DNA from: a virus
Virus record (IMG/VR): IMGVR_UViG_3300022602_000287
Coordinates: 1-31,716 of that record
Length of the DNA: 31,716 bases
Strand: one strand, 5' to 3'
Below the pieces are notes generated by a model. The model did not search any database and was not told the DNA's origin. It saw only the letters and a program-made list of their open reading frames with translations. The position numbers and the translations under genes are program-made. Below, piece by piece: positions 14,820 through 30,917 of the stretch; the first letter of the stretch is position 1; each line of letters starts with the position of its first letter.

Positions 14820-15076
14820 TGGATTCGCATATTCGTAGCTTAGTCAAAGGCATCACCTGGCGTATAACTGGTAGCCTAGATACCTTTTTTATATCCTGGT
14901 TAATCACTCATAAAGCAGCGATTGCAATCAGCATTACGGCTGTGGAGTTGCTCACCAAGATCACGTTGTACTGGGCGCATGAACGGGTTTGGCTGAAGGT
15001 GAAATGGGGAGTTTCCGAATCCCCAATTGATACCCACACAGAACCAGTTCAGCCTGTTCAGCAAACAAAGTCGTAA
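14816..15076 (+). CDS. DUF2061-like membrane protein
   Basis: 86 residues, ATG 14816 (a second ATG follows at 14819). It reads HIRSLVKGITWRITGSLDTF, then FISWLITHKAAIAISITAVE and LLTKITLYWAHERVW. This is the DUF2061 (PF09834) pattern, a small integral membrane protein with two helices and a conserved WR..gs.DT motif. Its function is unknown, though it is widespread in bacteria. The C-terminal ~39 codons overlap the 3' end of the oppositely directed methyltransferase gene. Confidence 0.8.
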   Translation: MMDSHIRSLVKGITWRITGSLDTFFISWLITHKAAIAISITAVELLTKITLYWAHERVWLKVKWGVSESPIDTHTEPVQPVQQTKS

Positions 15077-15575
15077 ACATATCTATCGCAATCTTTGGTC
15101 TGTGAAGCATTCCTGGCACATCTTGCCAGAGATAATCATCAAAAAGCATGATGCCGTTCTCATTCAATAGTTGCCATGCCATGCAGCCATCTGTCATTAC
15201 GTCTGGTGCTTGGTGAGAACCGTCTATGTAAATGAAGTCGTATTTCTCGTCTTGAGAGATCAAGTTAGCCAAAGCAACACTTGATTTGCCTTTGTAGGCG
15301 GTAACAAGTTGACCTTGTTTGCGTACCCAGTCAACATTTTGCTTCCAACGCTCAAAGAGGAGCGTCAGAGTGAGGTTCTCATGCTCTTCTGAGCCTTCAA
15401 ACGTATCTACACAGGTCATTTGACCGTTATCGTCCAGTAGATTCTCTAGCATCCAACAAGTAGCACGTCCTTCAAAGCAGCCAACCTCTAGGATGCGTTT
15501 GTTTGATGGCAATATCGTCTTGATATGCTCAAAGTTAGGAATGTTGTGTGAGAACCAGTCCTGAGAGAATTCCAT
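14961..15575 (-). CDS. Class I SAM-dependent methyltransferase
   Basis: 204 residues, ATG at 15575, stop TGA at 14961-14963. It has motif I ILEVGCFEGRAT (28-39), an acidic residue after the next strand (CVDTFEGSEEH, Asp57), and a central motif FIYIDGSHQAPDV (~114-126). These match the Methyltransf_24 type of Rossmann methyltransferase. The substrate is unknown; with the glycosyltransferase nearby, a surface glycan or nucleotide-sugar target is plausible. This gene is the last of the minus-strand operon. Its last 116 nt run antisense to the DUF2061-like gene, with no terminator visible between the converging operons. Confidence 0.8.
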   Translation of the reverse strand: MEFSQDWFSHNIPNFEHIKTILPSNKRILEVGCFEGRATCWMLENLLDDNGQMTCVDTFEGSEEHENLTLTLLFERWKQNVDWVRKQGQLVTAYKGKSSVALANLISQDEKYDFIYIDGSHQAPDVMTDGCMAWQLLNENGIMLFDDYLWQDVPGMLHRPKIAIDMFTTLFAEQAELVLCGYQLGIRKLPISPSAKPVHAPSTT

Positions 15576-15578
15576 ACT

Positions 15579-16007
15579 TCACCTTAGTTGTATATAACGG
15601 AAGTACTCTATGGGTACATCATAGAAATACTCATTCTGTGCAACATACTTGTTTTTTACTTCAACCTTGTTGCAGTTTAGTATTCTTTCAGTTATACACA
15701 TATACCCATAACGCAAATCATCATTTAATGCGAACATTAATGTTGGCAGGTTGTTTTTTAACAACTTCTCTTTACGTTCAGCAATATGGATAGTCTTGTA
15801 CGGGCATTTAGACCCGCCCCAGGATCGCATTTCTACTTCTGCGTATGCAACGGGTATGCCTTCACGTTTAAGCAACAGATCGGCTTTGTATTTTTCACCG
15901 TCTTCAGCGAATACTTGCCAGTTGCGCCTGACCCAGAGCTTGACTGCCTCTCTGGTTTCAGGATCGCAAGCCTTATCAAGTTCAGCATCGAATTTCTTGC
16001 GTCTCAT
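15579..16007 (-). CDS. Conserved phage protein, possible PD-(D/E)XK-like nuclease fold
   Basis: 142 residues, ATG at 16007, overlapping the glycosyltransferase gene by 4 nt. The centre reads YKADLLLKREGIPVAYAEVE (40-59), an Asp followed by an acidic pair on a beta-strand (YAEVEMR). It is followed by GGSKCPYKTIHIAERKEKLL and LPTLMFALNDDL. I recognise this order (strand with E-V-E, then PY.TIHI..RK) from hypothetical proteins of T4-like and cyanophages. An Asp...Glu-x-Glu arrangement may be a degenerate nuclease core, but the Lys is replaced, so activity is uncertain. Confidence 0.6.
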   Translation of the reverse strand: MRRKKFDAELDKACDPETREAVKLWVRRNWQVFAEDGEKYKADLLLKREGIPVAYAEVEMRSWGGSKCPYKTIHIAERKEKLLKNNLPTLMFALNDDLRYGYMCITERILNCNKVEVKNKYVAQNEYFYDVPIEYFRYIQLR

Positions 16008-16744
16008 GGTGCGGGAATAAGCCTGCCTTCAAACATATACGTGCCGATATGAGCAAGGACAACCCAAGGTGCGGCATAGATATGACCGCCAATCGCTCTG
16101 TAAGCTGCACAAAAGCCATAATCCTCTGACAATAGGCGTTCAGTCCCTGCTTCAATAGGTGTCGGGAAGTATTCAAATATTTTCTCTCTTCCCTGTAACG
16201 TATTGCCTAAGTCTGCCACGTCATTCATGTAGTATTTGACGTGATCCTGTAGCTTTTCAAACACTTCACGTTTAATCATCATAAAACCTGTACCACCATT
16301 CTGTATTTCAACAGGTTGATCGACAGGAACGGTGACAGACGGTGCATAGTCCACCAGATTCACAACAAAGCTACCTGTGTGATATTTAAGCTGATCGTCA
16401 GGTACGCCATTAGCCATAGCTTGCTTAACGGTTGTCCAGTTGATCTCTTTCTTGGGATAGATACCGCACAGGACATCTTTATCCGTTTGCAGCATCGTCA
16501 GGACATCGTAAGGATTGAATTTGATGTCAGCATCAATGAACATCATGTGCGTGGCATCAGACTTCATAAAGGCTTGAGCAAGGGCGTTCCTAGCACGAGG
16601 TATGAGGCTCTCATTGAACATGAATGACATCAGTACCTCATGTCCTTCCGATTGGAGGATAGAGGACACGTTTAGAAGGCTCTGAGCGTATGCCCCAGTA
16701 CACATTCCACCGTACATCGGTGTAGCGATAAATAATTTACTCAT
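16004..16744 (-). CDS. Glycosyltransferase, GT-A fold
   Basis: 246 residues, ATG at 16744. The N-terminus LFIATPMYGGMCTGAYAQSL leads into the first Rossmann-like strand. RARNALAQAFMKSDATHMMF and then IDADIKF give the DxD motif (Asp71-Asp73), which binds the metal and nucleotide-sugar diphosphate. The later NGGTGFMMIKREVFEKL and SEDYGFCAAYRAIGGHIYA are typical of the acceptor side of phage and capsular GT families. It may modify host surface polysaccharide or virion or host DNA; the substrate cannot be told from this sequence. It lies in the minus operon with a methyltransferase and a nuclease-like gene. Confidence 0.8.
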   Translation of the reverse strand: MSKLFIATPMYGGMCTGAYAQSLLNVSSILQSEGHEVLMSFMFNESLIPRARNALAQAFMKSDATHMMFIDADIKFNPYDVLTMLQTDKDVLCGIYPKKEINWTTVKQAMANGVPDDQLKYHTGSFVVNLVDYAPSVTVPVDQPVEIQNGGTGFMMIKREVFEKLQDHVKYYMNDVADLGNTLQGREKIFEYFPTPIEAGTERLLSEDYGFCAAYRAIGGHIYAAPWVVLAHIGTYMFEGRLIPAP

Positions 16745-16901
16745 TTTCTAGTGCCTCTATCAGTTGTGAAAGGATAAATGAAACGTTCGTAAGCATACGT
16801 TCCTCTTGCGATTGAAGGTATGCAACGAATTGAATGTAAGCCTGGAGTTCTTGCTGTGCTGCAATAGCTTCAGCGATAAGACGTTCTTTCTCTACTACCA
16901 T
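16737..16901 (-). CDS. Small coiled-coil protein
   Basis: 54 residues, ATG at 16901, stop TAA at 16737-16739, overlapping the start of the glycosyltransferase gene by 8 nt. The ribosome site AGGGG (16908-16912) lies 6 nt upstream. The sequence MVVEKERLIAEAIAAQQELQ, then AYIQFVAYLQSQEERML, is one or two amphipathic helices. Nothing is known of its function. The coupling suggests a role with the glycosyltransferase or simply operon co-expression. Confidence 0.65.
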   Translation of the reverse strand: MVVEKERLIAEAIAAQQELQAYIQFVAYLQSQEERMLTNVSFILSQLIEALENE

Positions 16902-16907
16902 GATGAT

Positions 16908-16923
16908 CCCCTGTAAGGTTGAG
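16908..16923 (-). promoter_or_regulatory. CTCAAC/AGGGG leader motif
   Basis: Minus-strand CTCAAC (16918-16923) followed 5 nt later by AGGGG (16908-16912), just upstream of the 54-aa gene. The same pairing of motifs occurs before three other minus-strand genes (20294-20311, 23326-23343, 23570-23584). AGGGG acts as the ribosome site; the function of CTCAAC is unknown. Confidence 0.45.
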
Positions 16924-16969
16924 TAAGGTGGTGACTACCCTAGATACCAGGTCACCGCTGGCTCTCAAC
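16918..16969 (-). other. Nested inverted repeats in the RusA-downstream gap
   Basis: The outer arms GTTGAG (16918-16923) and CTCAAC (16964-16969) enclose inner arms GGTGAC (16930-16935) and GTCACC (16951-16956). Both are 6-bp perfect. On the minus-strand transcript they would form a nested hairpin between the RusA-type gene and the next. No T-run follows, so I do not call it a terminator. It may be a processing site or translation control element. Confidence 0.45.
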
Positions 16970-16973
16970 GCCG

Positions 16974-17363
16974 CTAGGATTCGGTGGGGCTACCTTCCAT
17001 TGCGGAAGGTGAAGCATTTTCTACAACTACGATACAACCGCCACCACCCTTCTTCACTAGCCCCCGTGTGATAGAAACTTGGTGGACTTGCCTGTCATTA
17101 TCAAACAAACCCGCATCTTGCAAAGCATCGAGGATTGGTTTGATACAGTTATCAATGTCCATCAACCTAGCATCTCTTGGACGCAGCACAATATCAACTG
17201 TGACTGCACCACCCCCAAAAGATTGTAATTGGTGCGCTGCAACATACTCTTGTACTGCTAACTTAAAATCACGACCACGTTTAGAGACAAAACGGGTGTT
17301 TCCTCTAGCGATCCAATAATTATTGATGCTTGGAGGGTATGGCAAATGCAGTATATGTCTCAA
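16974..17363 (-). CDS. rusA: RusA-type Holliday junction resolvase
   Basis: 129 residues. The start is TTG at 17361-17363, supported by GGAGGGGAG a few bases upstream; no nearer ATG precedes the conserved part. It has the family signature PYPPSINNYW (8-17) and, at residues 66-91, RLMDIDNCIKPILDALQDAG with LFDNDRQV. The acidic residues Asp69, Asp71 and Asp88 or Asp90 fit the metal-binding site of RusA (PF05866). It would resolve four-way junctions during phage recombination or replication, fitting the adjacent SSB-like, RecT and YqaJ genes. The C-terminal tail is short and Ser/Pro-rich. Confidence 0.85.
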   Translation of the reverse strand: MRHILHLPYPPSINNYWIARGNTRFVSKRGRDFKLAVQEYVAAHQLQSFGGGAVTVDIVLRPRDARLMDIDNCIKPILDALQDAGLFDNDRQVHQVSITRGLVKKGGGGCIVVVENASPSAMEGSPTES

Positions 17364-17399
17364 AATGTCTCCCCTCCGTCAAGAAAAATCGGTTTTCGG

Positions 17400-17681
17400 C
17401 TAAAAAGGCACATCTGATTCGTCAATATTGACTTCACGAGGATAACTGGCTGCTTTTGCTTGTTTAGCAAATTCAGCTTGAGTGACCGATTCGTAAATCG
17501 AGACATATTGCTTACCGTTTTTAGCAGTAGACATATATGCTCGCATATTGAGTTTATCTCCTGCTTTATAGTCCTTTTGCAGGACAATATCGCCTTTAAA
17601 GTCAGGATCGGTTTCCTTGTTCTTTTCCTGTGACCAAAGGTAGCCACGTCCAGGTGGTACAACAAACGCATTTTCAGCCAT
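17400..17681 (-). CDS. Single-stranded DNA-binding-like protein
   Basis: 93 residues. I use ATG 17681 because GGGAG lies 9 nt upstream; an in-frame TTG at 17705 would overlap the RecT gene. The sequence has beta-strand-rich segments (AFVVPPGRGYLWSQEK; KGDIVLQKDYKAGDKLNM; GKQYVSIYESVT) compatible with a small OB-fold. The acidic-hydrophobic end DESDVPF mimics the C-terminal tip of bacterial SSB (DDDIPF), which binds partner proteins. The location beside recombination genes supports an SSB role. The fold is inference. Confidence 0.65.
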   Translation of the reverse strand: MAENAFVVPPGRGYLWSQEKNKETDPDFKGDIVLQKDYKAGDKLNMRAYMSTAKNGKQYVSIYESVTQAEFAKQAKAASYPREVNIDESDVPF

Positions 17682-17682
17682 T

Positions 17683-18534
17683 TTAGTTACTCCCGCAATT
17701 AGCAATAGCTTGGTTAATAATCATTTTCTGTGCTACTGAGAATGTTTCCATATAGCCTTCGTTAGCACGAGCAAGAGCTTTGGCTTTTTCCCGCTTATCA
17801 GCAAAAGAATACTTGCTAGAATTCCCAATGCGCTCACACATTTCAGCAAAAGCATAAATCCAAGCCTCCACATCAGAATAATAACCATAAGGTGCATCTA
17901 TTCCTGGTACGAACATTGGAATAGTAGGTTCTTTAACAACTTCAGCTTCAGAATCATCTCTAGGAGCGTCTAAAACGGCTTCTGAGACGATTTCTCCGTC
18001 TGGGGTAATACTTGGTATAGGATTAGGCTCAATCTTGCCTAAATGCTTGCTTTTAGGTGGTTCAAAATCAGCTACTTCTTCTGGTGAATAGAAGCCGGAT
18101 ACACTTCCTGGATATACGCTTCGTATGCCCTCAGAAATGCAGCGTGATCTAAGCATTGCTCGTGGAAACTTTTGCCATCCTGACCCAGGCTTAACAAGTC
18201 CGATGTTTCTTGCTTGCTCAATAGTCCAAGTAACGCTAAGTGATCCACCATTCGGATGAGAAAAGATTCCTGTAACTTTTTCGTCGTCATAATGTGTCCA
18301 TTCAACTTTGCCACCCGCAGCTTGGAATCGAGCCATCATCGCATCTGCTTTGAGTGCAGGTCTACCTTGTATGACATGATAATCACGTGCAGCAGTAGCG
18401 AAATGATGTCCTTCAGCCTGTGCGACCATACCGAGGGCTAGCACCTGGTTAACATCTGTAATGCCAAATAGCTTAGATGCAGCAATTGCTTGAGCCATAT
18501 TCTGCATTTCTTGGAAAGGTACGATATTACTCAT
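17683..18534 (-). CDS. RecT-type single-strand annealing protein
   Basis: 283 residues. The start ATG 18534 has GGGAG 7 nt upstream; a longer frame starting at 18582 would overlap the previous gene. It contains MAQAIAASKLFGITDVNQVL, then GHHFATAARDYHVIQGRPAL and KADAMMARFQAAGG. Later come the GGSLSVTWTIEQARNIGLV and PRAMLRSRCISEGIRSVYPG blocks. This is the RecT-like annealing family found in many phages. It anneals complementary single strands for recombination-dependent replication and repair. It pairs with the YqaJ-type exonuclease one gene upstream. Confidence 0.85.
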   Translation of the reverse strand: MSNIVPFQEMQNMAQAIAASKLFGITDVNQVLALGMVAQAEGHHFATAARDYHVIQGRPALKADAMMARFQAAGGKVEWTHYDDEKVTGIFSHPNGGSLSVTWTIEQARNIGLVKPGSGWQKFPRAMLRSRCISEGIRSVYPGSVSGFYSPEEVADFEPPKSKHLGKIEPNPIPSITPDGEIVSEAVLDAPRDDSEAEVVKEPTIPMFVPGIDAPYGYYSDVEAWIYAFAEMCERIGNSSKYSFADKREKAKALARANEGYMETFSVAQKMIINQAIANCGSN

Positions 18535-18724
18535 CGGTTTTCTCCCGTTCTGTGAGCATACAATCAGCCATAACATAGGCATCTATTGCTACCAAGTGAT
18601 ACGTTTGTCTATTTTGAGACAATAAACCCTGCATAGCTGCTGCCGCAAAATAATCCCGTAATGTCATACCTTCCTTCATGTCTTTATTGCTGCGCCATGT
18701 GGGAAATGCTGGTGTTTCGTTCAT
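18527..18724 (-). CDS. Small conserved phage protein
   Basis: 65 residues, ATG at 18724 with TAGGGG (18731-18736 region) as ribosome site overlapping the stop of the exonuclease gene. The centre KEGMTLRDYFAAAAMQGLLS is a common pattern in small phage proteins of unknown role (often G.T.RDYFA..AMQGL). The 3' end overlaps the RecT gene start by 8 nt, so translation is probably coupled. It lies between exonuclease and annealing protein, hinting at an accessory role in recombination. Confidence 0.65.
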   Translation of the reverse strand: MNETPAFPTWRSNKDMKEGMTLRDYFAAAAMQGLLSQNRQTYHLVAIDAYVMADCMLTEREKTDE

Positions 18725-18733
18725 AATTAACCC

Positions 18734-19633
18734 CTATTTAATGAGAAATCTTCTACTACCTGGTTGTTCAACACAAAACTTTTCGTACAGATCACCCATA
18801 CTGGATTGAAAGAGTTTTGCATCGAATCTTTTGCTTGGTTTAGCTGATTTCCAACTCACCAATGTTGTGCCGTCTACAGACCGGATTTCAGAGTTATCAG
18901 ACATATAGTTGCGTATTGCAACTTCTAATGCCTCCACCTGATCTTCAGCCTCTTTAATGCGTTCTTTATACTGTTTCAACAGTAGGATTTGCTGCTCGAT
19001 CTGCTGCGTTGCTGTAACCACGCCTTCTGTTGATTGCGGATAGAGCAATTTCGTCTGCTCAATCGTCTCTGGCTCTGGCGTAGTGTTTGCATGGACGTGT
19101 CCCCAGAAAACAGCCATTTGTCGAATGAGGTCGTCCTTTTGATCCTGAGTAATTTCATACACAAAATATTTAAATTCTTGTCCACCGAAAAGTACAGCGA
19201 GACAGATTTTTTCAATGTTGTGTACAGCCGCTTCATGTACAAGTTGTGCATAGTCAGCCGCAGGTATCCTGCCTGTTTCAAAGTCGAATTTGTTGCGTAC
19301 CGAGGCGTTGTAGTTTTTAGCTTCCACGAGCATCTGTCCATCAGCCGTGATTCCGTCAAAATGCGATCTAAACCAACTTTCTTTCGGGTGGGCAAGCGAG
19401 TAATCGGCATCTTTAATCTCCATTTTGAGTGCATTCTGAGCAAGATTGAGAATAGTAGGCTGCATCACCTTCCCCATTTGAACCGCCTCTATTGCTGATA
19501 AGTCCGGTATTGGCATTTTTCCTTGCTTGGTTAACACCACGTCCAAAGCTCTGCCGTTAGCTACTTTCCTACTATCCCCCGACCACCAACTTGCGTTTCT
19601 TATCTCAGGTAAAAAGTCTTGTTCATCATTCAT
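18734..19633 (-). CDS. YqaJ-type viral recombinase/exonuclease
   Basis: 299 residues from ATG 19633. I reject the upstream start at 19681, which lies inside the HNH gene. HFDGITADGQMLVEAKNYN (residues 91-109) has Asp93 and Glu104-x-Lys106, the PD-(D/E)XK core of the YqaJ nuclease family (PF09588). In other members a Glu precedes this in a helix; here the comparable QMGKVMQPT segment shows Gln, which could reduce activity or shift the catalytic residue. Residues ~215-250 are a coiled coil, and the tail SWKSAKPSKRFDAKLF is typical of the family. It should resect DNA ends for RecT-mediated annealing. Confidence 0.8.
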   Translation of the reverse strand: MNDEQDFLPEIRNASWWSGDSRKVANGRALDVVLTKQGKMPIPDLSAIEAVQMGKVMQPTILNLAQNALKMEIKDADYSLAHPKESWFRSHFDGITADGQMLVEAKNYNASVRNKFDFETGRIPAADYAQLVHEAAVHNIEKICLAVLFGGQEFKYFVYEITQDQKDDLIRQMAVFWGHVHANTTPEPETIEQTKLLYPQSTEGVVTATQQIEQQILLLKQYKERIKEAEDQVEALEVAIRNYMSDNSEIRSVDGTTLVSWKSAKPSKRFDAKLFQSSMGDLYEKFCVEQPGSRRFLIK

Positions 19634-20087
19634 GGCAAGCAAACTCCTTGTGCATTTGTTCTCTAGCTTGTTTGGCAACAAGCGCAGCGGTATCTAATTC
19701 TTTGTAATAACCAAAATCTCTGCGTTGCTTATCGAATTGCACCCGAACACGCCATTTAGATATTTTTGGTGTCCAAAAAACATCTTTTACGCCAGAAGTG
19801 TTTTTTACAGATTTCTTTTGGTTAGATTGATTTTCTGAAGCTGTGCATTGACGTAAATTCTGAATACGGTTGTCAACTCTGTTGCCGTTTATGTGATCTA
19901 TGCGATTTGGCACTAATCCCCAGTGCATTTCAAAAACAACACGATGAACTAAATAAATTTTTTGTTCATATTTGAACATTAAGTAACCAGAACCATTAAG
20001 CGTACCTGCTTGCTTTCCTTTTCTGTTGCCTGTTTTCCATGTAAGGATTCCGTTTTCATAAAAAAACAATTTTTTCCAATCATTCAT
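19626..20087 (-). CDS. HNH endonuclease with AP2-type DNA-binding domain
   Basis: 153 residues, ATG at 20087. It has LVHRVVFEMHWGLVPNRIDH (46-65), INGNRVDNRIQNLR (66-79) with catalytic-type His48, Asp64-His65, Asn67 and Asn73, followed by an AP2-like domain (GVKDVFWTPKISKWRVRVQF, 99-118, then FGYYKELDTAALVAKQA). This is a free-standing homing-type nuclease. The start overlaps the stop of the zinc-finger gene (ATGA), and the stop overlaps the exonuclease gene by 8 nt, so the gene has been neatly fitted between two operon members. The strongly AT-rich Lys/Asn-rich coding differs from neighbouring genes. Confidence 0.85.
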   Translation of the reverse strand: MNDWKKLFFYENGILTWKTGNRKGKQAGTLNGSGYLMFKYEQKIYLVHRVVFEMHWGLVPNRIDHINGNRVDNRIQNLRQCTASENQSNQKKSVKNTSGVKDVFWTPKISKWRVRVQFDKQRRDFGYYKELDTAALVAKQAREQMHKEFACHE

Positions 20088-20287
20088 GCTTGTCCCCCAA
20101 ATGGAATTTCGGAAAAGATAGATTCAAAGTAATTCGCTTGAGAGCCACACCCAGTATTTGATAACGTGCGTTCTATTTCCGCATAGACATTGCGAGAAGA
20201 TGCAACACCCGTCACCAGGCTAACACCTGTAGGACGTTGACAGAGTGGTGCTTGATAATGCTTACAGTTGACACAGAATTTGGTCAT
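20084..20287 (-). CDS. Small Cys-rich protein (zinc-binding type)
   Basis: 67 residues, ATG at 20287. Cysteines at 5, 8, 16 and 47 (FCVNCKHY, LCQRP, TGCGSQA) are spaced like a small zinc ribbon. The conserved-looking parts VSLVTGVASSRNVYAEIERT and CGSQANYFES fit a family I remember from other phages without a known function. The ribosome site AGGGG (20294-20298) follows the CTCAACTCAAC leader. A promoter candidate lies just upstream. The short distance to the HNH gene suggests joint expression. Confidence 0.65.
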   Translation of the reverse strand: MTKFCVNCKHYQAPLCQRPTGVSLVTGVASSRNVYAEIERTLSNTGCGSQANYFESIFSEIPFGGQA

Positions 20288-20293
20288 TTATAG

Positions 20294-20311
20294 CCCCTAA
20301 GTTGAGTTGAG
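20294..20311 (-). promoter_or_regulatory. CTCAACTCAAC/AGGGG leader motif
   Basis: Minus-strand CTCAACTCAAC (20301-20311) followed 2 nt later by AGGGG (20294-20298), upstream of the 67-aa Cys-rich gene. It is almost identical to the copy at 23326-23343. The AGGGG is the ribosome site; the upstream part may be bound by RNA or protein, which is untested. Confidence 0.5.
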
Positions 20312-20327
20312 ATGTACTACAGTTAAT

Positions 20328-20356
20328 AATATACAGCAATTAATTAAGTAATGCAA
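20328..20356 (-). promoter_or_regulatory. Candidate sigma-70 promoter for the zinc-protein/recombination operon
   Basis: On the minus strand, TTGCAT (20351-20356) and TATATT (20328-20333) are separated by 17 nt. The -10 matches five of six consensus bases, the -35 only three. It is the only gap of notable length (72 nt) between 17 kb and 21 kb of minus-strand genes, so a promoter here for the exonuclease-RecT-SSB-RusA block is plausible but unproven. Confidence 0.4.
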
Positions 20357-20359
20357 CTA

Positions 20360-21007
20360 CTATGTGTTTTTCTCCTTTAATTTGGCTTCTGCTTTTTTAA
20401 TATCGACTAAACCACCACGCCTACAATCAAGTATGTTTTTTATTTCCTCATCCGTCAGCCCGACCCATTTTTTGCGTGGTGATGATGTGTAAAGTGGCTT
20501 CCATTTCAAAACATCGCACCTTGTATATTCGTATTGATTATTTCCTTCATGTATCAAAACAATATCGTCTTCGTCTTCATTTAATTTGTATTTAACTACA
20601 ATTACTTGTACATCCCTTCCTTCTAAAAAACTGTCACCATCTGTTGAATAGCTGTACCAATCAACAACAGCTTTGCAATAAGTGTTGATAGGCATTTCAT
20701 CAACATTTTCGTTCCACGCTACAGGTTTTTGCTCGGGCCTAGCTAACTCTGTGCGTGGTGGTGATGTGTAGAGTGGGCTTACATCAAGATTTGCTAAATC
20801 TTCAAGCGGGATGTCCGCAATCCAATAACAAGCTTTTGTATCACGCCAGTAATACGCAACAGGCTTTTGCTTCTCTGCTTGCTCAGGCTTGGCTAACTCT
20901 GCCTCAAGGGCTTTCATTACTTCATAAGGCGAGTATTTATTTGTTCCGCCTGTGCTGTATTCACTTTTTAATACATCCAACGCTTGTTGTAATAGTTCAC
21001 GGTTCAT
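20360..21007 (-). CDS. Phage protein with repeated PLYTSPPR-like motif
   Basis: 215 residues, ATG at 21007, AGGGG (21014-21018 region) 7 nt upstream. The N-terminus LLQQALDVLKSEYSTGGTNK and two copies of a KPVAY/KPVAWN....PLYTS(S/P)PR module (49-84 and 95-188) are typical of variable phage proteins of unknown role. The end WVGLTDEEIKNILDCRRGG resembles a small helical C-terminal cap. Between the two modules a WYSYSTDGDSFLEGRDV-type block is inserted. The gene follows the PAPS-reductase-like gene, and transcription probably continues through it. Confidence 0.6.
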   Translation of the reverse strand: MNRELLQQALDVLKSEYSTGGTNKYSPYEVMKALEAELAKPEQAEKQKPVAYYWRDTKACYWIADIPLEDLANLDVSPLYTSPPRTELARPEQKPVAWNENVDEMPINTYCKAVVDWYSYSTDGDSFLEGRDVQVIVVKYKLNEDEDDIVLIHEGNNQYEYTRCDVLKWKPLYTSSPRKKWVGLTDEEIKNILDCRRGGLVDIKKAEAKLKEKNT

Positions 21008-21024
21008 ATCTATCCCCTATAAAG

Positions 21025-21873
21025 TTAATCACCACAAAAACACGCTATACCATCCTCATCTTTATCAAATAATGAAATTTGATCATTCGTAAACTGCAAC
21101 ATACTTGCATAACCAGGTCTATCCTTCCTAAACGTAGCACCATCGGGTCGGGACGCTAACGCTAACGCTAACGCTTCCATCCTTGCCCACCATATCGCCC
21201 TTTCTGGCTTCTCTGCAATCAAGGTGGCAACCTGATTCATAGGCTTTAAAAAACACAAATCACAGTTACCCGCTAGTGTTCTACCTTTATATGTTGGTAA
21301 CTCAAGATTAAATTCTTGTTTATCCCAAAATTCAGCAATATCCGCTACCGTTACCCCTGCTGTATAAAGCGGTATCCTGCGTTTATCAGCAATCTTAGTT
21401 GCCCGTCTTGCTTCATCATATCTAAGCCCTATCCAAGAAGCGTTTTCCAGCTCTGACTTTGAACAATCATCAAATAATCCTGTTTGCTTCAAAAAACACG
21501 CCATTGTGCGTATCTTTAATTCACTCGTACAGAATCTAGTAACAGGGTTCGGTAAGTAATTACGTTTACGTATCAATGCTTCAAATGGTTCACCATTCCT
21601 ACTTGCAGTTTCATACGTAACATTCTTATATCTTTGCAACGGGTCTTCATGGTCTTGAAATTCCACCCAGTTGATCTTTACATTCCAATTAACAGAACAA
21701 TCATTAACAAACTTTAATGTAGCTTCTTCTTCTTTACCCGTATTAGCAAAGCAAACGATTGCATCCTCTGGCAAACCATTGTTGGCTTGTAATACTTGAT
21801 AGAGCATATAGGCTGAAGTTCTACCACCACTAAAAGATATACAAGTTGGTTCTGTTATTAAATATGGATTCAT
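21025..21873 (-). CDS. PAPS reductase/ATP-pyrophosphatase-like protein
   Basis: 282 residues from ATG 21873 (AGGA ten nt upstream). A longer frame from 21924 would start within the structured RNA. SFSGGRTSAYMLYQ (13-26) is the PP-loop of adenine nucleotide alpha-hydrolases (PF01507). Later motifs are RNYLPNPVTRFCTSELKIRT, WIGLRYDEARRA, and the Cys-rich CDLCF and CFCGD that may bind a metal or cluster. Enzymes of this family activate a substrate with ATP (sulfate, tRNA or nucleotide thiolation). The phage version has no known target. An unusual in-frame (GCGTTA)3 repeat gives ALALALA near residue 240. Confidence 0.8.
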   Translation of the reverse strand: MNPYLITEPTCISFSGGRTSAYMLYQVLQANNGLPEDAIVCFANTGKEEEATLKFVNDCSVNWNVKINWVEFQDHEDPLQRYKNVTYETASRNGEPFEALIRKRNYLPNPVTRFCTSELKIRTMACFLKQTGLFDDCSKSELENASWIGLRYDEARRATKIADKRRIPLYTAGVTVADIAEFWDKQEFNLELPTYKGRTLAGNCDLCFLKPMNQVATLIAEKPERAIWWARMEALALALASRPDGATFRKDRPGYASMLQFTNDQISLFDKDEDGIACFCGD

Positions 21874-21913
21874 GTATATATGTCCTAAATAGATAACTGC
21901 TTTTTGGTGGACG

Positions 21914-22085
21914 AACCTAGCCATTCCTAGACTAGGTTAACCTTCATCCATGCTTTTCGGAGCCACGGAACCCGTAAGCCTTTCGTGCCTGGACGCTTAC
22001 TTCGCCATCCGCTCTAGTTCTCAGCACTAATCCCATAGTCTAGATTTCCCCTAATCGCTACCGTCACTCACTCCGAACAATTAGG
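21914..22085 (-). ncRNA. Possible structured, pseudoknotted leader RNA upstream of PAPS-reductase-like gene
   Basis: No gene is seen in this stretch. On the minus transcript, CCUAAUUG (22085-22078) can pair with CGAUUAGG (22057-22050). The directly adjacent UUCGGAG (22077-22071) pairs with CUCCGAA (21962-21956), which gives an H-type pseudoknot with coaxial helices. A GUAAGC/GCUUAC hairpin (22000-21995 with 21979-21974) lies inside. Near the 3' end, AACCUAG/CUAGGUU (21938-21932 with 21920-21914) competes with an 8-bp long-range pairing CUAGACUA/UAGUCUAG (22043-22036 with 21934-21927). Mutually exclusive helices ~40 nt before the start codon suggest a switch. These are hand-found; no known riboswitch matches. 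Confidence 0.4.
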
Positions 22086-22103
22086 CGGTTGTACATGAGG
22101 GAC

Positions 22104-22176
22104 AATAAAAAAGCCGCTTTTAACAGTATCCCGGTGAGAACCCCAGTTGGGGGCGAGACACTGATAAAAACGGCTT
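22104..22176 (-). terminator. Rho-independent-like terminator of the small RNA
   Basis: A long inverted repeat (22111-22127 with 22160-22176, 15 of 17 paired) is followed on the minus strand by TTTTTTATT (22112-22104). This is the usual stem plus U-run layout. On the plus strand the stem is followed by TTAAATATT, so it reads poorly in that direction. It would stop transcription before the PAPS-reductase-like gene unless readthrough is regulated. Confidence 0.6.
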
Positions 22177-22202
22177 AAATATTGTTGCTTCTCACGACAA
22201 CA
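22104..22202 (-). ncRNA. Possible stand-alone ~100-nt small RNA
   Basis: The minus strand has its own promoter candidate (22208-22237), a first hairpin UGUUG/CAACA (22202-22198 with 22187-22183), then a long hairpin (17 bp, two mismatches, 22176-22160 with 22127-22111) containing a CCCC/GGGG inner stem. It ends at a T-rich tract. The loop of the first hairpin, GUGAGAA (22195-22189), is perfectly complementary to UUCUCAC (22140-22134) within the second, a possible 7-bp kissing interaction. The precise ends are inferred. No ORF with a ribosome site lies in this stretch. Confidence 0.45.
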
Positions 22203-22207
22203 TCCGC

Positions 22208-22237
22208 ACAATATCAAACTAAATCAATGCTTGTCAA
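22208..22237 (-). promoter_or_regulatory. Strong sigma-70 promoter candidate, minus strand
   Basis: On the minus strand TTGACA (22237-22232) exactly matches the -35 consensus. The -10 TATTGT (22213-22208) matches four of six and is preceded by TGA, making an extended TGn element, with an 18-nt spacer. It overlaps the last codons of the 57-aa gene, which points to it being a genuine site for a new transcript start near 22201. Confidence 0.55.
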
Positions 22238-22397
22238 CTACCTTTTGCTCACTAGGCGGTTTAAATCCAAATTTAGCCCATGTCTTGCGTATATCTGTCT
22301 TACTGGCAGGTACATATTCCCATTTAGGATTTAACAAGCTAGCGTTATGTTGTTGCACTCTCTGTGCGTGCGCTATTTCTCTATCAAAATCATCCAT
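22224..22397 (-). CDS. 57-aa protein with PASKTDIRKTW motif
   Basis: 57 residues, ATG at 22397, AAGGGG (22403-22408 region) as ribosome site, stop TGA at 22224-22226. It reads MDDFDREIAHAQRVQQHNAS, then LLNPKWEYVPASKTDIRKTW, then AKFGFKPPSEQKVVDKH. The K-W-x-Y-V-P...DIRKTW.KFG..PPS core is one I associate with short phage proteins of unknown role. Its 3' end contains the -35 box of the next promoter. No DNA-binding motif is certain. Confidence 0.65.
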   Translation of the reverse strand: MDDFDREIAHAQRVQQHNASLLNPKWEYVPASKTDIRKTWAKFGFKPPSEQKVVDKH

Positions 22398-22407
22398 TTT
22401 TATCCCC

Positions 22408-22560
22408 TTAATTACACGTAGTTACACAGTTTTGGTTATTCTCACCAGTACAACAAGTAATACATATATGCACTTTACCATCTGATCCCATAAACGAATT
22501 ACTGCTACAAGCCCAAGCAACACCAGATACAAACAACAAAACAATAAATAGATACTTCAT
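22408..22560 (-). CDS. Small secreted Cys-rich protein
   Basis: 50 residues, ATG at 22560 preceded by TAGGGG. The N-terminus MKYLFIVLLFVSGVAWACSS looks like a signal peptide with cleavage after AWA or a weak lipobox (VAWAC). The mature part is short and holds six cysteines in all (ACSSNSF; KVHICITCCTG; NCVTTC), enough for three disulfides or metal binding. Such small exported proteins in phage early regions may act in superinfection exclusion or on the envelope; I know no family. A TATAAA-containing stretch upstream may be its promoter. Confidence 0.6.
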   Translation of the reverse strand: MKYLFIVLLFVSGVAWACSSNSFMGSDGKVHICITCCTGENNQNCVTTCN

Positions 22561-22630
22561 AACATACCCCTAAAAATAAACCTTTATAGGCGTTGAAAAG
22601 AAAAGTAATAGCAATACATATACAAAGGGT

Positions 22631-22669
22631 AAAAAAAGCCCCTAGAGCCGTTTTAATCAATTCTAGGGG
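22631..22669 (-). terminator. Rho-independent terminator
   Basis: CCCCTAGA (22639-22646) and TCTAGGGG (22662-22669) form a perfect 8-bp stem, followed on the minus strand by seven T residues (22637-22631). It lies six bases beyond the stop of the 57-aa gene at 22676-22849. It should end transcription of the first early genes, so a new promoter is needed for the genes below. Confidence 0.8.
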
Positions 22670-22675
22670 TATTGC

Positions 22676-22849
22676 TTAGATATAACCTAAGAATCCATCC
22701 TCATCCGATACTTTTATAGTCCAATACTTATCCCCCCAAGGGATAGCCTCATATGTCCAATCATCATTGGCTTGGAGCATAGCTGCCGTACTTTTTGCTT
22801 TGTGCTCTGATAAGAGAGACAGTGGTGTAACTTTGTCATGTAATCTCAT
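22676..22849 (-). CDS. 57-aa hypothetical protein
   Basis: 57 residues, ATG at 22849 with AAGGGG upstream. It begins MRLHDKVTPLSLLSEHKAKS, then TAAMLQANDDWTYEAIPWGD, and ends KYWTIKVSDEDGFLGYI. The last part resembles a small beta-hairpin with W/Y residues. I do not recognise a family. It is the last gene before the terminator at 22631-22669, and its start lies 9 nt after the stop of the 31-aa membrane peptide gene. Confidence 0.6.
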   Translation of the reverse strand: MRLHDKVTPLSLLSEHKAKSTAAMLQANDDWTYEAIPWGDKYWTIKVSDEDGFLGYI

Positions 22850-22858
22850 GTTATCCCC

Positions 22859-22954
22859 TTAGTTTGTTGCGACAAGAAAGAACCATATAAAAATAATTGA
22901 GCATATTGCTAGTGATAGTGCCCAACCAAGTATTTCTTTGTGTTTGTTAGTCAT
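22859..22954 (-). CDS. 31-aa single-TM peptide
   Basis: 31 residues, ATG at 22954, AAGG a few bases upstream, 8-nt overlap with the 3' end of the preceding gene. MTNKHKEILGWALSLAICSI followed by IFIWFFLVATN is a single membrane helix with a basic N-terminus. Small membrane peptides of this type occur in phage early regions and can act on host membrane proteins. No homolog is recognised. Real because of coupling and ribosome site, but short. Confidence 0.5.
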   Translation of the reverse strand: MTNKHKEILGWALSLAICSIIFIWFFLVATN

Positions 22955-23210
22955 GGTTAGCCTTCTCAATTGACGGATTGTGGTAATAATATTTTGCTAT
23001 ACAGCAATCGCTTAATAGACCGATAATTTCACAGGTAGCAAAGTTTTCTGTGTAGTCATCGTCAATAGACCAAAAACCCTCGCTTACTGGCAAATATTTG
23101 ATAAATAAATTTAATTGAGTTTCCTCGCAATCATCTAGCCCCGAATAATCGTTATTGATAATTGCTGACATAAAGTGCTTACTGATTGTGAATTCATAAT
23201 AGTCATTCAT
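22947..23210 (-). CDS. Acidic hypothetical protein
   Basis: 87 residues from ATG 23210 (AAAGGG 8 nt upstream; TTG 23216 is less likely). It has FTISKHFMSAIINNDYSGLD, then LNLFIKYLPVSEGFWSIDDD and ENFATCEIIGLLSDCCIAKY. The combination of a hydrophobic/acidic core with a terminal CEIIGL...CC is like small DUF6926-type phage proteins, but I am not confident. Acidic small early proteins of phages often inhibit host enzymes or mimic DNA; this is speculation. Confidence 0.6.
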   Translation of the reverse strand: MNDYYEFTISKHFMSAIINNDYSGLDDCEETQLNLFIKYLPVSEGFWSIDDDYTENFATCEIIGLLSDCCIAKYYYHNPSIEKANHD

Positions 23211-23212
23211 GA

Positions 23213-23320
23213 TCAAACCCTTTCAATTGAGTATTTTTTACGTGTTAAACGAAATAGCAGCTTGACGTATTGCTCGGCTTGGATGAAGTCATCGAAGTAT
23301 TGTTGACATACTTTGAACAT
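23213..23320 (-). CDS. 35-aa basic/aromatic peptide
   Basis: 35 residues, ATG at 23320 with AGGGG (23326-23330) five bases upstream, part of the CTCAACTCAAC leader. The sequence MFKVCQQYFDDFIQAEQYVK then LLFRLTRKKYSIERV is amphipathic with a basic end. The longer open frame extending to 23416 lacks a ribosome site. It is followed immediately by the next gene. The function is unknown. Confidence 0.55.
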   Translation of the reverse strand: MFKVCQQYFDDFIQAEQYVKLLFRLTRKKYSIERV

Positions 23321-23325
23321 ATAAA

Positions 23326-23343
23326 CCCCTATGTTGAGTTGAG
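23326..23343 (-). promoter_or_regulatory. CTCAACTCAAC/AGGGG leader motif
   Basis: Minus-strand CTCAACTCAAC (23333-23343) plus AGGGG (23326-23330), upstream of the 35-aa gene. It is nearly identical to 20294-20311 and related to 16908-16923 and 23570-23584. The hairpin at 23346-23366 lies directly before it. Confidence 0.5.
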
Positions 23344-23345
23344 AG

Positions 23346-23366
23346 TGCCAGTTTGAGGTACTGGCA
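23346..23366 (-). other. 7-bp hairpin in early leader
   Basis: TGCCAGT (23346-23352) and ACTGGCA (23360-23366) pair perfectly around a 7-nt loop. It lies between the 60-aa gene and the 35-aa gene. No T-run follows, so an mRNA processing or stability element is more likely than a terminator. Confidence 0.5.
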
Positions 23367-23381
23367 GACCTGTAAAGCTTA

Positions 23382-23564
23382 TTAAACTTCCAAGTAATGC
23401 GCCTCAGTTGATGCAATAGGTTTGCACAATGATGCGCTATACACTTCTTGCTGGTTAATCAAATTATCGTATGCAAACTTTGCATCATTAATTGATTCGA
23501 ATACAGTGTAATGATCAGTAAATAGCTGATCGTGTTTAATAGTCCAGCATAATATTGTCATCAT
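23382..23564 (-). CDS. 60-aa hypothetical protein, first gene of leftward operon
   Basis: 60 residues from ATG 23564 (AGGGG at 23570-23574, with CTCAAC upstream). It reads MMTILCWTIKHDQLFTDHYT, then VFESINDAKFAYDNLINQQE and VYSASLCKPIASTEAHYLEV. The VFESINDAKFAYDNLI section resembles an alpha-helical pattern. I do not recognise a family. As the promoter-proximal gene of the minus-strand operon it is expected to be expressed early. Confidence 0.6.
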   Translation of the reverse strand: MMTILCWTIKHDQLFTDHYTVFESINDAKFAYDNLINQQEVYSASLCKPIASTEAHYLEV

Positions 23565-23569
23565 ATAAG

Positions 23570-23584
23570 CCCCTATTGGTTGAG
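23570..23584 (-). promoter_or_regulatory. CTCAAC/AGGGG leader motif
   Basis: Minus-strand CTCAAC (23579-23584) followed 4 nt later by AGGGG (23570-23574), upstream of the 60-aa gene. An additional CTCAAC lies at 23596-23601. This is the fourth example of the leader type on this strand. Confidence 0.45.
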
Positions 23585-23616
23585 ATATATACGCTGTTGA
23601 GTTAACGTATATATAG

Positions 23617-23645
23617 ATAGTAATCAATTAATCTATATCTATCAA
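23617..23645 (-). promoter_or_regulatory. Candidate early promoter, minus strand
   Basis: On the minus strand, TTGATA (23645-23640; five of six) and TACTAT (23622-23617; four of six) are separated by 17 nt. They would start transcription of the leftward operon a few bases later, about 45 nt upstream of the first gene. AT-rich surroundings make chance matches likely. Confidence 0.4.
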
Positions 23646-23652
23646 TACAATA

Positions 23653-23675
23653 ATATTGAATGGCTTATTCAATAT
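23653..23675. repeat. Perfect 9-bp inverted repeat
   Basis: ATATTGAAT (23653-23661) and ATTCAATAT (23667-23675) flank a 5-nt loop. It lies 24 nt from the parS site and upstream of the leftward promoter. It could be a repressor operator, an origin hairpin, or a terminator for stray transcripts. Confidence 0.65.
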
Positions 23676-23698
23676 AATCTAATAATCTACTAAGTAAA

Positions 23699-23714
23699 TG
23701 TTTCACGTGAAACA
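23699..23714. promoter_or_regulatory. Perfect parS site (chromosomal ParB binding sequence)
   Basis: TGTTTCACGTGAAACA is a perfect 16-bp palindrome identical to the canonical parS site to which chromosomal ParB proteins bind, load and slide as CTP clamps in many bacteria. The match is read directly. No ParB, ParA or Noc-like gene is present in the window. A chance exact match to a 16-mer is very unlikely in a phage-sized sequence, and its location in the divergent regulatory region supports function. Either host ParB is recruited, or a phage ParB-like protein is encoded outside. Confidence 0.85.
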
Positions 23715-24004
23715 CTATATACTTATATAACAGTAAGGAATACTTAGGACTATATATTTATATAGATATAGATTTTATAAATAAACTATATCTATCTATA
23801 GTAGTTGTCTATAAATATATATATCTATATTAGTGGTTATATATCCTATATATAAATCTATTAAGGGACAGGAGAGTATTCCTAAAGTACGTAAAACCAT
23901 ACTACTTCCTTACAACTACCTTACAAAGGGTATGGGTATAAGTATAAACCCTATATATATATATTATCTATCCACACACCAGAACCGATAGTCACCCTGG
24001 CAAT

Positions 24005-24043
24005 GGAATGGGTTTAGGGGGCTGTAGGGGGGAGCCCCATTCC
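24005..24043. repeat. G/C-rich inverted repeat with alternative hairpin
   Basis: GGAATGGG (24005-24012) pairs with CCCATTCC (24036-24043). The internal GGGGCT and AGCCCC can form a competing smaller hairpin. The strand between holds three G-runs of three to six, and a C6A9 tract follows (24049-24063). The location just before the rightward promoter suggests an origin or regulatory structure. Confidence 0.5.
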
Positions 24044-24072
24044 TATATCCCCCCAAAAAAAAATCAGGTTTA

Positions 24073-24717: not shown

Positions 24718-24870
24718 ATGTATGCTGCATTGAGATGCAGGACAAAGGCTCAGAAACGCAAGCTAGCAGCCTATTGGAAAAAGACATACTCAGATATAGG
24801 CTACAAAGAATTGATCGCTTGTGCGAGAGATACAAAGGTCAGAAGTGCTATTGCTAACTGGGAACTATGA
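24718..24870 (+). CDS. Short basic protein before the large terminase
   Basis: 50 residues from ATG 24718 (AAGG 5 nt upstream). Non-ATG starts TTG 24652 or TTG 24661 would give 69-72 residues but lack a ribosome site. It reads MYAALRCRTKAQKRKLAAYW, then KKTYSDIGYKELIACARDTK, and overlaps the terminase start (ATGA). Basic small proteins here may contact DNA; a small terminase subunit is possible but it is shorter than usual. Confidence 0.5.
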   Translation: MYAALRCRTKAQKRKLAAYWKKTYSDIGYKELIACARDTKVRSAIANWEL

Positions 24871-26645
24871 GTAACTTTAATCTTCAACAGTTTTATCACT
24901 TCTGCCGACAGCTCAAGATTGAAACCAAAGAGCATGGCTTAAAGAAGATGGATAAGCTATTAGGTACTCAAACCTATGTCATGGGTGAGATTGCTAAAGG
25001 CTTAGAGGAAGGCGTTCATTTCTTCACGATCCTCAAGGGGCGGCAACTTGGTATCACGACCATCTCTCTTGCCCTCGATCTGTATTGGCACTTTGTTAAC
25101 CCTGGTCTTCAGGGAACATTGACAACGGATACGGAAGAGAACAGAGATATGTTTCGCTCAACCTTGGCGATGTACATGGATGGGTTACCCAAGGAATACA
25201 AGATTCCTCTGATTGCTCACAACCGTACTCAGATGAGTTTGAAGAACCGCAGTCGATTGTTTTATCAGGTGGCAGGAACTCGTTCAAAAGGAACACTAGG
25301 TCGTGGCAAAGCAATTACCTTTTTACATGGAACAGAAACAAGTTCTTGGGGTGATGAGGAAGGTCTTGCTTCCCTACTGGCTTCGCTTGCTGAAACCAAC
25401 CCAATGCGAATGTACATCTTTGAATCTACTGCCCGTGGGTTCAATATGTTTCACGATATGTATACGACAGCTAAACGGGCTAGAACACAAAGAGCTATTT
25501 TTTGTGGTTGGTGGCGTAACGAGTTGTATTCACTAGACCCCAATGGACAAACCTACAAAGTCTACTGGGATGGCAAACTCACGGGTGAAGAGAAAGAGTG
25601 GGTGCGTGATATTAAGAAACTCTACAACGTAGAGATCAATTCTCGTCAAATCGCCTGGTGGCGTTGGAAACTCTTTGAAGGCATCAAGGACGATAGCCTC
25701 ATGTATCAGGAATTTCCTCCCACTGAAGACTACGCCTTCGTAATGACAGGCACATCCTACTTCTCTAACGCAAGGTGTACTGATGCTGCCAAAATCGCTA
25801 AAAAGACCACACCGGATTACTACCGCTATCTGTTTGGTGCAAACTTCCAAGACACCAATGTCCTCAAGTCCACCGAACGACTTGCGACCCTTAAGGTATG
25901 GGAAGAACCGATTGACACAGCCTACTACGTTATTGGGGCTGATCCTGCATACGGCTCTTCTGATTGGGCTGATCGTTTTTGCATTCAAGTCTACAGAGCT
26001 TATTCCGATGGACTCGAACAAGTCGCAGCATTCGCAACGTCGGAAATGAACACCTATCAGTTCGCATGGGTGATTGCTCACCTTGCTGGCGCATACAAGA
26101 ACTCCACCTTAAATCTTGAAGTCAATGGTCCAGGTCAAGCAGTCATCAACGAGTTGCGTAACCTCAAGCGTCTTGCAGCGTCTATGGGCGGTCAAATGGG
26201 ATCAGACTTGATGAACGTCTATGGCTCAATGACCAACTACATCTGGAGAAAGAACGACTCATTAGGCGGGATGTCAGCCTCGATGGGTTGGCTCACCACC
26301 TCTGCGACCAAAGAGAGAATGCTCTCCTACATGAAAGACTACTTTGAGCGTGGCATGATGGATATCTTTGATATGGAAACCATTGAAGAGATGAAGACTG
26401 TTGTTCGTGATGGGGGCGCAATTGAAGCCTCTGGGCGCAACAAGGATGATCGGGTCATTGCGTCAGCCCTGGCTGCTGCTGCATACGCAGAACAAGTACA
26501 GCCTCAACTCATTGGCAGACGTATTTCTAAAGACATCAGCAAGAAACAAGAGGAACTTACCCCTGAAGAAGTGGCAATGGGTAAGAACGTATCAAACTAT
26601 CTCAAGCAAATAGGTATTTACGGTGGCAATACCCGTCCTATCTAA
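24867..26645 (+). CDS. terL: Terminase large subunit
   Basis: 592 residues, ATG 24867. The ATPase domain has the Walker A-type KGRQLGITT (57-65). A possible Walker B region is AITFLHGTETSSWGDEEG (149-166), and the coupling motif is ESTARG (186-191). The nuclease domain is marked by IGADPAYG with Asp359, LNLEVNGPG with Glu418, and KDDRVIASALAAAAY near the C-terminus, an RNase-H-like set. It is the packaging motor and headful-type nuclease that cuts phage DNA and drives it through the portal. The next gene begins 23 nt before its stop. Confidence 0.92.
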   Translation: MSNFNLQQFYHFCRQLKIETKEHGLKKMDKLLGTQTYVMGEIAKGLEEGVHFFTILKGRQLGITTISLALDLYWHFVNPGLQGTLTTDTEENRDMFRSTLAMYMDGLPKEYKIPLIAHNRTQMSLKNRSRLFYQVAGTRSKGTLGRGKAITFLHGTETSSWGDEEGLASLLASLAETNPMRMYIFESTARGFNMFHDMYTTAKRARTQRAIFCGWWRNELYSLDPNGQTYKVYWDGKLTGEEKEWVRDIKKLYNVEINSRQIAWWRWKLFEGIKDDSLMYQEFPPTEDYAFVMTGTSYFSNARCTDAAKIAKKTTPDYYRYLFGANFQDTNVLKSTERLATLKVWEEPIDTAYYVIGADPAYGSSDWADRFCIQVYRAYSDGLEQVAAFATSEMNTYQFAWVIAHLAGAYKNSTLNLEVNGPGQAVINELRNLKRLAASMGGQMGSDLMNVYGSMTNYIWRKNDSLGGMSASMGWLTTSATKERMLSYMKDYFERGMMDIFDMETIEEMKTVVRDGGAIEASGRNKDDRVIASALAAAAYAEQVQPQLIGRRISKDISKKQEELTPEEVAMGKNVSNYLKQIGIYGGNTRPI

Positions 26646-27027: not shown

Positions 27028-27577
27028 GATACTAAGGGATTACAAATGCCAGGAACATGGCTTTTTTGAAGGTTTTGAACCAATTTGTCCAGAGGGGTGT
27101 ACCGATTATGTTCTCCAAGTTTTTCTCCAGGCTCCTGGGTTTAAGAGTGAAAAGTCTAAAGCTGCCGACAGACAACTTAAGCAGCTTGCCAGCGAATTCG
27201 GAATGTCTGACATCAAGTCCACCAAAGAAGGCGAGAACCAAAGCGGCTACCTCACCCGCAACAACAAGTTCACCGAAAAAGAATACGCAGACGCAGAGAA
27301 ATACGCCACGCCCAAAAAGAGAGGCAGACCTCGCAAAGGCAAAGCCGCAGCCGAAACGCCGCAAGCCCCGCAAGAAGCCCGTGCTGGTGACGCAGCAATC
27401 TGGGGCGGTGGCTTCCAAGGGATGAATATGGCGCAAGTCTTAGCCGGAAAGTTCGCTCAACCAGTCAGAGGTGAGTCTGTGGGCTTGACACCGAGGGATG
27501 CGGGGATCAATAATGGTCCTAGAATAGACCCTCGTGCAACCATGCAAGACCCTGACGGACTAAAGATTAAGACATGA
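27020..27577 (+). CDS. Protein with N-terminal zinc-ribbon-like motif and AT-hook-like basic stretch
   Basis: 185 residues, ATG 27020 with TAGGGGATAAAG upstream. The start DYKCQEHGFFEGFEPICPEG (residues 7-26) has Cys-x-x-His and a later Cys-x3-Cys that could bind zinc. A middle segment PKKRGRPRKGKAA (~97-109) contains the AT-hook core RGRP. The C-terminal part is low complexity. It probably touches DNA or RNA. It overlaps the previous gene by 8 nt and the portal gene by 4 nt. Function unknown. Confidence 0.6.
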   Translation: MSRILRDYKCQEHGFFEGFEPICPEGCTDYVLQVFLQAPGFKSEKSKAADRQLKQLASEFGMSDIKSTKEGENQSGYLTRNNKFTEKEYADAEKYATPKKRGRPRKGKAAAETPQAPQEARAGDAAIWGGGFQGMNMAQVLAGKFAQPVRGESVGLTPRDAGINNGPRIDPRATMQDPDGLKIKT

Positions 27578-30383: not shown

Positions 30384-30917
30384 ATGAGTAGCTTAGAGAA
30401 CATGGATCAAAATCAGATTTACGAATTGGCTAAATTGACCAAGACGCTATCTGACAATCCTGAAACCCGCAAAGAACTCTTACGGATGACGAAGAAAGTT
30501 AATCCTGACTTAGTTATTCCAGAACTGGAAATCGAAGATTACACAAACCAAAAAATTACCGCTGCTGAAGAAAAAGTTATAGCAATGGAAAATAAGTTGC
30601 GTGAGCGTGAGATTCGGGATCAGTTGGAGTCTAAGCGTAAAAAACTCAAAGAGACTTATAACGTGGATGATAATGCTGTGAGCGAAATTGAAAAAATCAT
30701 GCTCGATCAAGGCATCACCAATCACGATACAGCAGCACAACATTGGGAATGGATGAAGCAAGCTGCTGAACCCACGCCCACTGGCTACAACCCTAATGCA
30801 ATGAACAAGTTTGACTTGTCAAAGTATTGGAAAAGTCCGCAGCAAGCGGCTCGTAATGAGGCAGCTACTGCATTGCAGGAAATTCGTAACATTGGTCGTA
30901 GACCAATTGGTGTGTAG
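30384..30917 (+). CDS. Scaffold candidate, coiled-coil head protein
   Basis: 177 residues, ATG 30384 with TAGGGGATAAAC upstream. It is acidic-basic alternating and strongly helical (ITAAEEKVIAMENKLREREI, RDQLESKRKKLKETYNVDDN), then a C-terminal region with KFDLSKYWKSPQQAARNEAA. Position directly before the capsid gene, helical content, and size fit scaffolding proteins of phages that shape the procapsid. A virion-internal role cannot be excluded. The HNH gene lies between it and the capsid gene. Confidence 0.65.
   Translation: MSSLENMDQNQIYELAKLTKTLSDNPETRKELLRMTKKVNPDLVIPELEIEDYTNQKITAAEEKVIAMENKLREREIRDQLESKRKKLKETYNVDDNAVSEIEKIMLDQGITNHDTAAQHWEWMKQAAEPTPTGYNPNAMNKFDLSKYWKSPQQAARNEAATALQEIRNIGRRPIGV

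Follow-up and report, generated by a model that had tools for sequence, protein, structure and literature searches.

An exact chromosomal-type parS site in a phage without recognised partition genes: a probable borrowed loading site for host ParB

The phage DNA analysed here (the window; one entire IMG/VR record of 31,716 bases) carries, at positions 23699–23714, an exact 16-bp palindromic parS of the chromosomal type, TGTTTCACGTGAAACA, located by a scan of the sequence. We consider it probable (approximately 0.65) that this site was borrowed from a bacterial chromosome and does load ParB, which would provide the phage genome with a host partition complex. Since an exact parS is present and partition genes of the phage's own are absent, the phage probably borrows the ParB of its host; judged from the sequence, recruitment of host ParB by the site is likely, whilst genome retention or positioning as the main benefit of such recruitment is proposed tentatively, at somewhat less than even odds. 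Recruitment of host ParB through a borrowed parS is well supported, albeit indirectly: a complete sister genome lacks ParB, a consensus parS occupies the same gap in a second lineage, parS is strongly enriched in phages at large and tends to lie between genes there, and two precedents have been published. The features of the window to which we refer are as follows.

14961..23627, minus strand: leftward early-type block (RecT, RecE/YqaJ exonuclease, RusA, HNH, methyltransferases, a PAPS-reductase-like gene and small ORFs)
23628..24071, no strand: AT-rich divergent intergenic region holding parS, with degenerate TATATCTATCTATA-type repeats; the same gap is present in L126 and L133
23699..23714, no strand: parS, TGTTTCACGTGAAACA, by sequence match; identical in L122/G001 (30494–30509) and in L208
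23999..24060, no strand: conserved G/C-tract element, GGAATGGGTTT ... GGGAGCCCCATTC ... CCCCCCAAAAAAA; conserved in L126, L133, L269, L271 and L273
24072..31498, plus strand: rightward block (small genes, terminase large subunit, portal and further virion-block genes)
24867–26645, plus strand: terminase large subunit
27574–29208, plus strand: portal

At every position the site agrees with the 16-bp consensus TGTTNCACGTGAAACA, which is that of B. subtilis parS (PMC7022226). A scan of all 31,716 bases revealed no second site within three mismatches. From base composition, an exact parS is expected approximately 1e-5 times per window (1.1e-5), and 8e-8 times in a 400-bp AT-rich gap, which bears out the low chance probability given in the preliminary description of this DNA. 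The 444-bp gap that contains the site (23628–24071; GC approximately 32%) is non-coding and separates two diverging gene blocks, with AT-rich repeats surrounding parS; the divergent regulatory location beside AT-rich repeats that had been reported is thus confirmed. Promoter-like matches within the gap were no more numerous than in shuffled sequence, and in a GC-skew test for an origin the skew followed gene orientation and was therefore uninformative. The gap is more safely called a 'divergent early/late promoter region'. The G/C-tract element (23999–24060), distinct from parS, is positioned between it and the first rightward gene, directly upstream of the latter; it is kept in relatives although their surrounding gap is not, and may act in packaging or regulation.

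Profile searches of the window returned Pfam or PHROG matches to RecT, a YqaJ/RecE-type exonuclease, RusA, HNH nucleases and methyltransferases, and to an SU10/P22-like portal, a terminase, a GTA-type holin and a GH108 lysozyme. The gene at 21025–21924 is PAPS-reductase-like and that at 16004–16744 belongs to PHROG 1574; MW202753 has, at the equivalent position, a protein annotated as 'dpG-synthase-like', and a role in DNA modification is possible for the PAPS-reductase-like and PHROG 1574 genes.

No match to ParB_N (PF02195; E up to 1) was obtained in the window, G001, L126, L133 or MW202753, and none to TIGR00180 (E up to 1), the ParA-type ATPase PF13614 or the tyrosine integrase PF00589 in these sequences or in MW202825; control genomes did give matches in the ParB, ParA and integrase searches. 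The claim that ParA and ParB are absent from the window therefore stands, and extends to its complete sister. Among the 47 ORFs of the window there was no repressor-like Pfam match, and no HTH regulator was recognised. The term 'switch region', by which the gap had been called, is not supported, as no repressor, tyrosine integrase or lysogeny gene was found, and a prophage switch was set aside on these grounds: the tyrosine integrase and repressor of an integrating temperate phage were not found, nor were the parA and parB of a phage-plasmid with its own ParABS. A parS on a phage encoding no ParB, the hallmark of a phi29-like hijack, is what both the window and the complete G001 possess.

Freshwater samples are rich in relatives of this phage. 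The closest, L122 (G001; 35,697 bp), is regarded as complete because it has a 100-bp end repeat; it matches the window in mosaic blocks of roughly 74–99% nucleotide identity over much of the window, which, judged against it, is approximately 4 kb short of a whole genome. Exact parS with a matching downstream flank is present in G001 (30494–30509) and in L208. A more distant relative, L133 (approximately 76% nucleotide identity in structural genes), has TGTTCCACGTGAAACA in the corresponding gap; this is a full match to TGTTNCACGTGAAACA, and the same variant as in phi29. By chance, 0.008 sites within one mismatch of parS are expected in all 722 kb of relatives. parS is missing from L125, L126 and about 20 other gap-bearing relatives, and from the complete circular relatives MW202753 and MW202825 (34–36 kb), the latter having just one match with two mismatches, inside a gene. 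Across the family, then, the site is kept in L122 and L208, present as a variant in L133, and lost or replaced in approximately 20 relatives, and it is for this last reason regarded as accessory, not essential. Absence from close relatives counts against an essential function, yet not against a real one.

These comparisons bear on the preliminary description in two ways. Its suggestion that conservation be sought was borne out for L122, L208 and, as a variant, L133, but not for the approximately 20 gap-bearing relatives without parS; likewise, no ParB was found in the relatives searched, but non-conservation of the palindrome beside conserved flanking genes, which it had named as evidence against itself, was in part observed.

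At the place of parS in L133 (columns homologous to L133 8375–8390), its nearest relatives, L269, L271 and L273, carry another 16-mer, CACGTTATGTAAAGTA, identical in all three although their flanks are only approximately 78% identical to one another. Read without gaps, the L133 slot differs from that of these relatives in 10 of 16 columns; as a short indel could reduce this figure, we claim no exact mutational path. The parS sites of L133 and of the window lie at unequal distances from common landmarks, and these observations are suggestive, though not proof, of separate acquisition in the same regulatory gap by the two lineages. Other perfect palindromes occur upstream of the terminase in relatives (TAAACCGTACCGGTACGGTTTA, ATCTCGAGCTCGAGAT and GTATAGACGTCTATAC, among L136/L283, L138/L286 and L279); it looks as if one binding site could be exchanged for another in this region. 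Near-parS matches (TGTTTCACGTGTAACA and TGTTTCGCGTGTAACA) are also present in L135 (5423), L137 (3488) and L138 (5946), with the terminase start lying approximately 3.27 kb upstream in each case, and probably within the portal gene; being coding matches that the window does not share, they were set aside.

Beyond this family, a scan for the exact site found parS in at least 120 IMG/VR viral contigs, which fall into 116 unrelated clusters among the matches listed, compared with 0, 33 and 2 contigs for three control palindromes. In a phage collection, 286 records contain exact parS (412 sites, with BLAST counting each site on both strands) and 147 contain the phi29/L133 variant; the same controls gave 0, 5 and 0 records, the five representing a single Erwinia jumbo-phage lineage in which the palindrome lies inside an RNA polymerase gene. 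Placement is also biased: of 146 parS sites in the viral loci among the matches listed, 66 are intergenic, where approximately 9% of bases are non-coding, versus 0 of 33 sites of the second control palindrome (Fisher p = 4e-8). Two or more copies are present at 17 of 120 loci, again among the matches listed, versus 0 of 33 for the control. ParB_N was matched in only 5 of 100 parS-bearing viral records; within this set, 27 of the 32 records longer than 30 kb are without it. Some short parS contigs could be bacterial fragments miscalled as viral, a problem from which isolate phages are free. Isolates with parS between genes include Lactobacillus Harbinvirus, Gordonia Orchidvirus, Arthrobacter Korravirus, Enterococcus Athos, Bacillus Chedec 11 and Butyrivibrio Arian. 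Other arrangements occur: Pseudomonas Otagovirus phiPsa374 (L266) has a phi29-type parS at 389–404, in its terminal repeat, the unrelated Vibrio phage phi 3 (KP280063) has parS within its direct terminal repeat, and the 5910-bp inovirus bajarodino virus 6 (L262) has six exact sites, most of them intergenic.

Our scan of phi29 (NC_011048) gave four TGTTTCACGTGGAACA sites, the same variant as the TGTTCCACGTGAAACA of L133. Meijer (2005) is said to have ascribed to these parS sites a role in the entrapment of phi29 in spores. The window resembles phi29 in being from a phage without ParB that carries a host-type parS; it differs in having a single exact TGTTTCACGTGAAACA, in a divergent gap, and in belonging to an unrelated lineage. 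According to PMC9437464, which cites Meijer et al. 2005, host Spo0J traps the phi29 chromosome in spores, and entry into the spore is Spo0J-dependent. A spore outcome of this kind is unlikely here, as the presumed host is a Gram-negative, non-sporulating freshwater bacterium. SGI1, likewise a mobile element without ParB that carries parS, has parS mimics which bind the ParB of IncC plasmids and stabilise SGI1 (PMC10954446), which shows that a parS can function on an element lacking ParB by recruiting that of another replicon; SGI1, however, uses a plasmid ParB and also expels the plasmid concerned, whereas the present site is of chromosomal type and on a phage. Compared with chromosomal parS near oriC the 16 bp are the same, but the phage site is single-copy and not beside parAB. 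Phage-plasmids such as P1 and the extrachromosomal mycobacterial prophages also have parS on a phage genome, together with a ParABS of their own (PMC7157519), whilst here there is no parA or parB. An analogy may also be drawn with phages in which lytic deferment relies on sites for host CtrA or Spo0A (PMC9437464), in that a host cell-cycle DNA-binding protein would be co-opted via phage intergenic sites; ParB, however, is a partition clamp and not a classical transcription factor.

As regards the host, four MAG contigs encode relatives of the terminase; they come from mixed phyla, two of the four being binned with freshwater betaproteobacteria. Both betaproteobacterial MAGs have exact parS 2–4 kb from a chromosomal parB on the same contig, the link between phage and host being one of binning only. 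A likely host class thus uses the identical 16-mer.

On the preferred reading, host ParB would bind the phage parS upon infection; the bound ParB, as suggested by the ParB literature, would close as a CTP-dependent clamp and slide onto adjacent phage DNA. The phage genome would thereby acquire a host partition complex, which host ParA and the SMC machinery could then position or retain, and the presumed benefit is that the genome stays in the cell, or passes to daughter cells, while lysis is delayed. Such retention or positioning would be analogous to the carriage of phi29 into spores by Spo0J and to the stabilisation of SGI1 by a plasmid ParABS. A single site makes a weaker centromere than the clusters found on many chromosomes, though one parS is reported to be sufficient (PMC7022226).

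Silencing or timing of transcription is the nearest rival to retention or positioning, though an unlikely one. Here ParB loaded at parS would spread over the divergent promoters and repress or time early and late transcription, the site being a host-dependent operator and not a centromere. The position of parS between two divergent gene blocks accords with this, as does the ability of P. aeruginosa ParB at parS to silence an adjacent promoter (PMC7022226); the L133 slot, with parS where relatives have another conserved 16-mer, also looks as if regulator sites had been swapped. In B. subtilis, however, genes beside parS are unchanged upon loss of Spo0J (PMC7022226), the parS sites of other phages are often distant from a divergent promoter, within genes or in terminal repeats, and the promoter-like matches in the window gap do not exceed those in shuffled sequence. 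Next comes ParB titration, which we judge improbable: replicating phage copies would draw host ParB from oriC and disturb chromosome segregation or SMC loading, as a form of host takeover. Many parS-bearing phages, phi29 and Herelleviridae among them, do seem virulent, and multiple copies occur in some (four in phi29, six in bajarodino virus 6), but this phage has one site per genome, and titration would favour many sites, placed anywhere rather than mainly between genes.

It is more doubtful again that a regulator encoded by the phage uses the palindrome as its operator, the agreement with parS being accidental. Perfect palindromes commonly serve as operators, others are present in the same region of relatives, and the small uncharacterised ORFs leave room for a regulator; yet the window yielded no recognisable HTH regulator, and with a near-universal parS found exact in unrelated phages while the three control palindromes are rare or absent, convergence is hard to credit. 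Chance, or a neutral leftover of, for example, recombination with host origin DNA, is very improbable. The patchy distribution of parS in the family is as such a leftover would have it, but against it stand two apparently separate occurrences in the gap of one family and the global enrichment and intergenic bias of parS; a chance origin is rejected by the expectation of approximately 1e-5 and the three control palindromes. Least probable of all is that the phage is a phage-plasmid whose own ParABS lies beyond the window. Relative to L122, approximately 4 kb of genome is indeed missing, and a phage ParB outside the window had been named as the main alternative to the use of host ParB; this is contradicted by the complete sister L122/G001, which has no match to ParB_N, TIGR00180 or ParA and so makes such a ParB very unlikely.

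Taken as a whole, the original observation was right and is unlikely to be due to chance, and its interpretation is plausible and has precedent. The core idea, recruitment of host ParB, is upheld by the ParB-less sister, the second lineage, the enrichment and the precedents, but a choice among the possible benefits cannot be made from sequence; we regard the interpretation as only partly supported. Conservation of the site does not extend through the whole family, and its function is putative.

The excess of parS in phages lacking ParB is the more interesting result than the single site. We found no description of it in the open literature searched, a body outside which most subscription journals lie, and its novelty is accordingly uncertain. 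At close to even odds, borrowing of host parS may be a widespread strategy of ParB-less phages, encompassing tailed phages of Gram-positive and Gram-negative hosts, microviruses and inoviruses, in which the site is easily gained and lost in regulatory gaps and host ParB, ParA and SMC serve to position or retain the genome or to set timing, a use extending far past the phi29 sporulation case. Culturable carriers of parS exist, including Listeria P100-like phages, Lactobacillus Harbinvirus, Arthrobacter Korravirus and phi29-like phages. If the reading given here is real, a phage without partition genes would exploit the centromere machinery of its host outside the spore formers, and, to judge from the excess in ParB-less phages, ParB clamps on phage DNA may be a general, little-studied part of infection.
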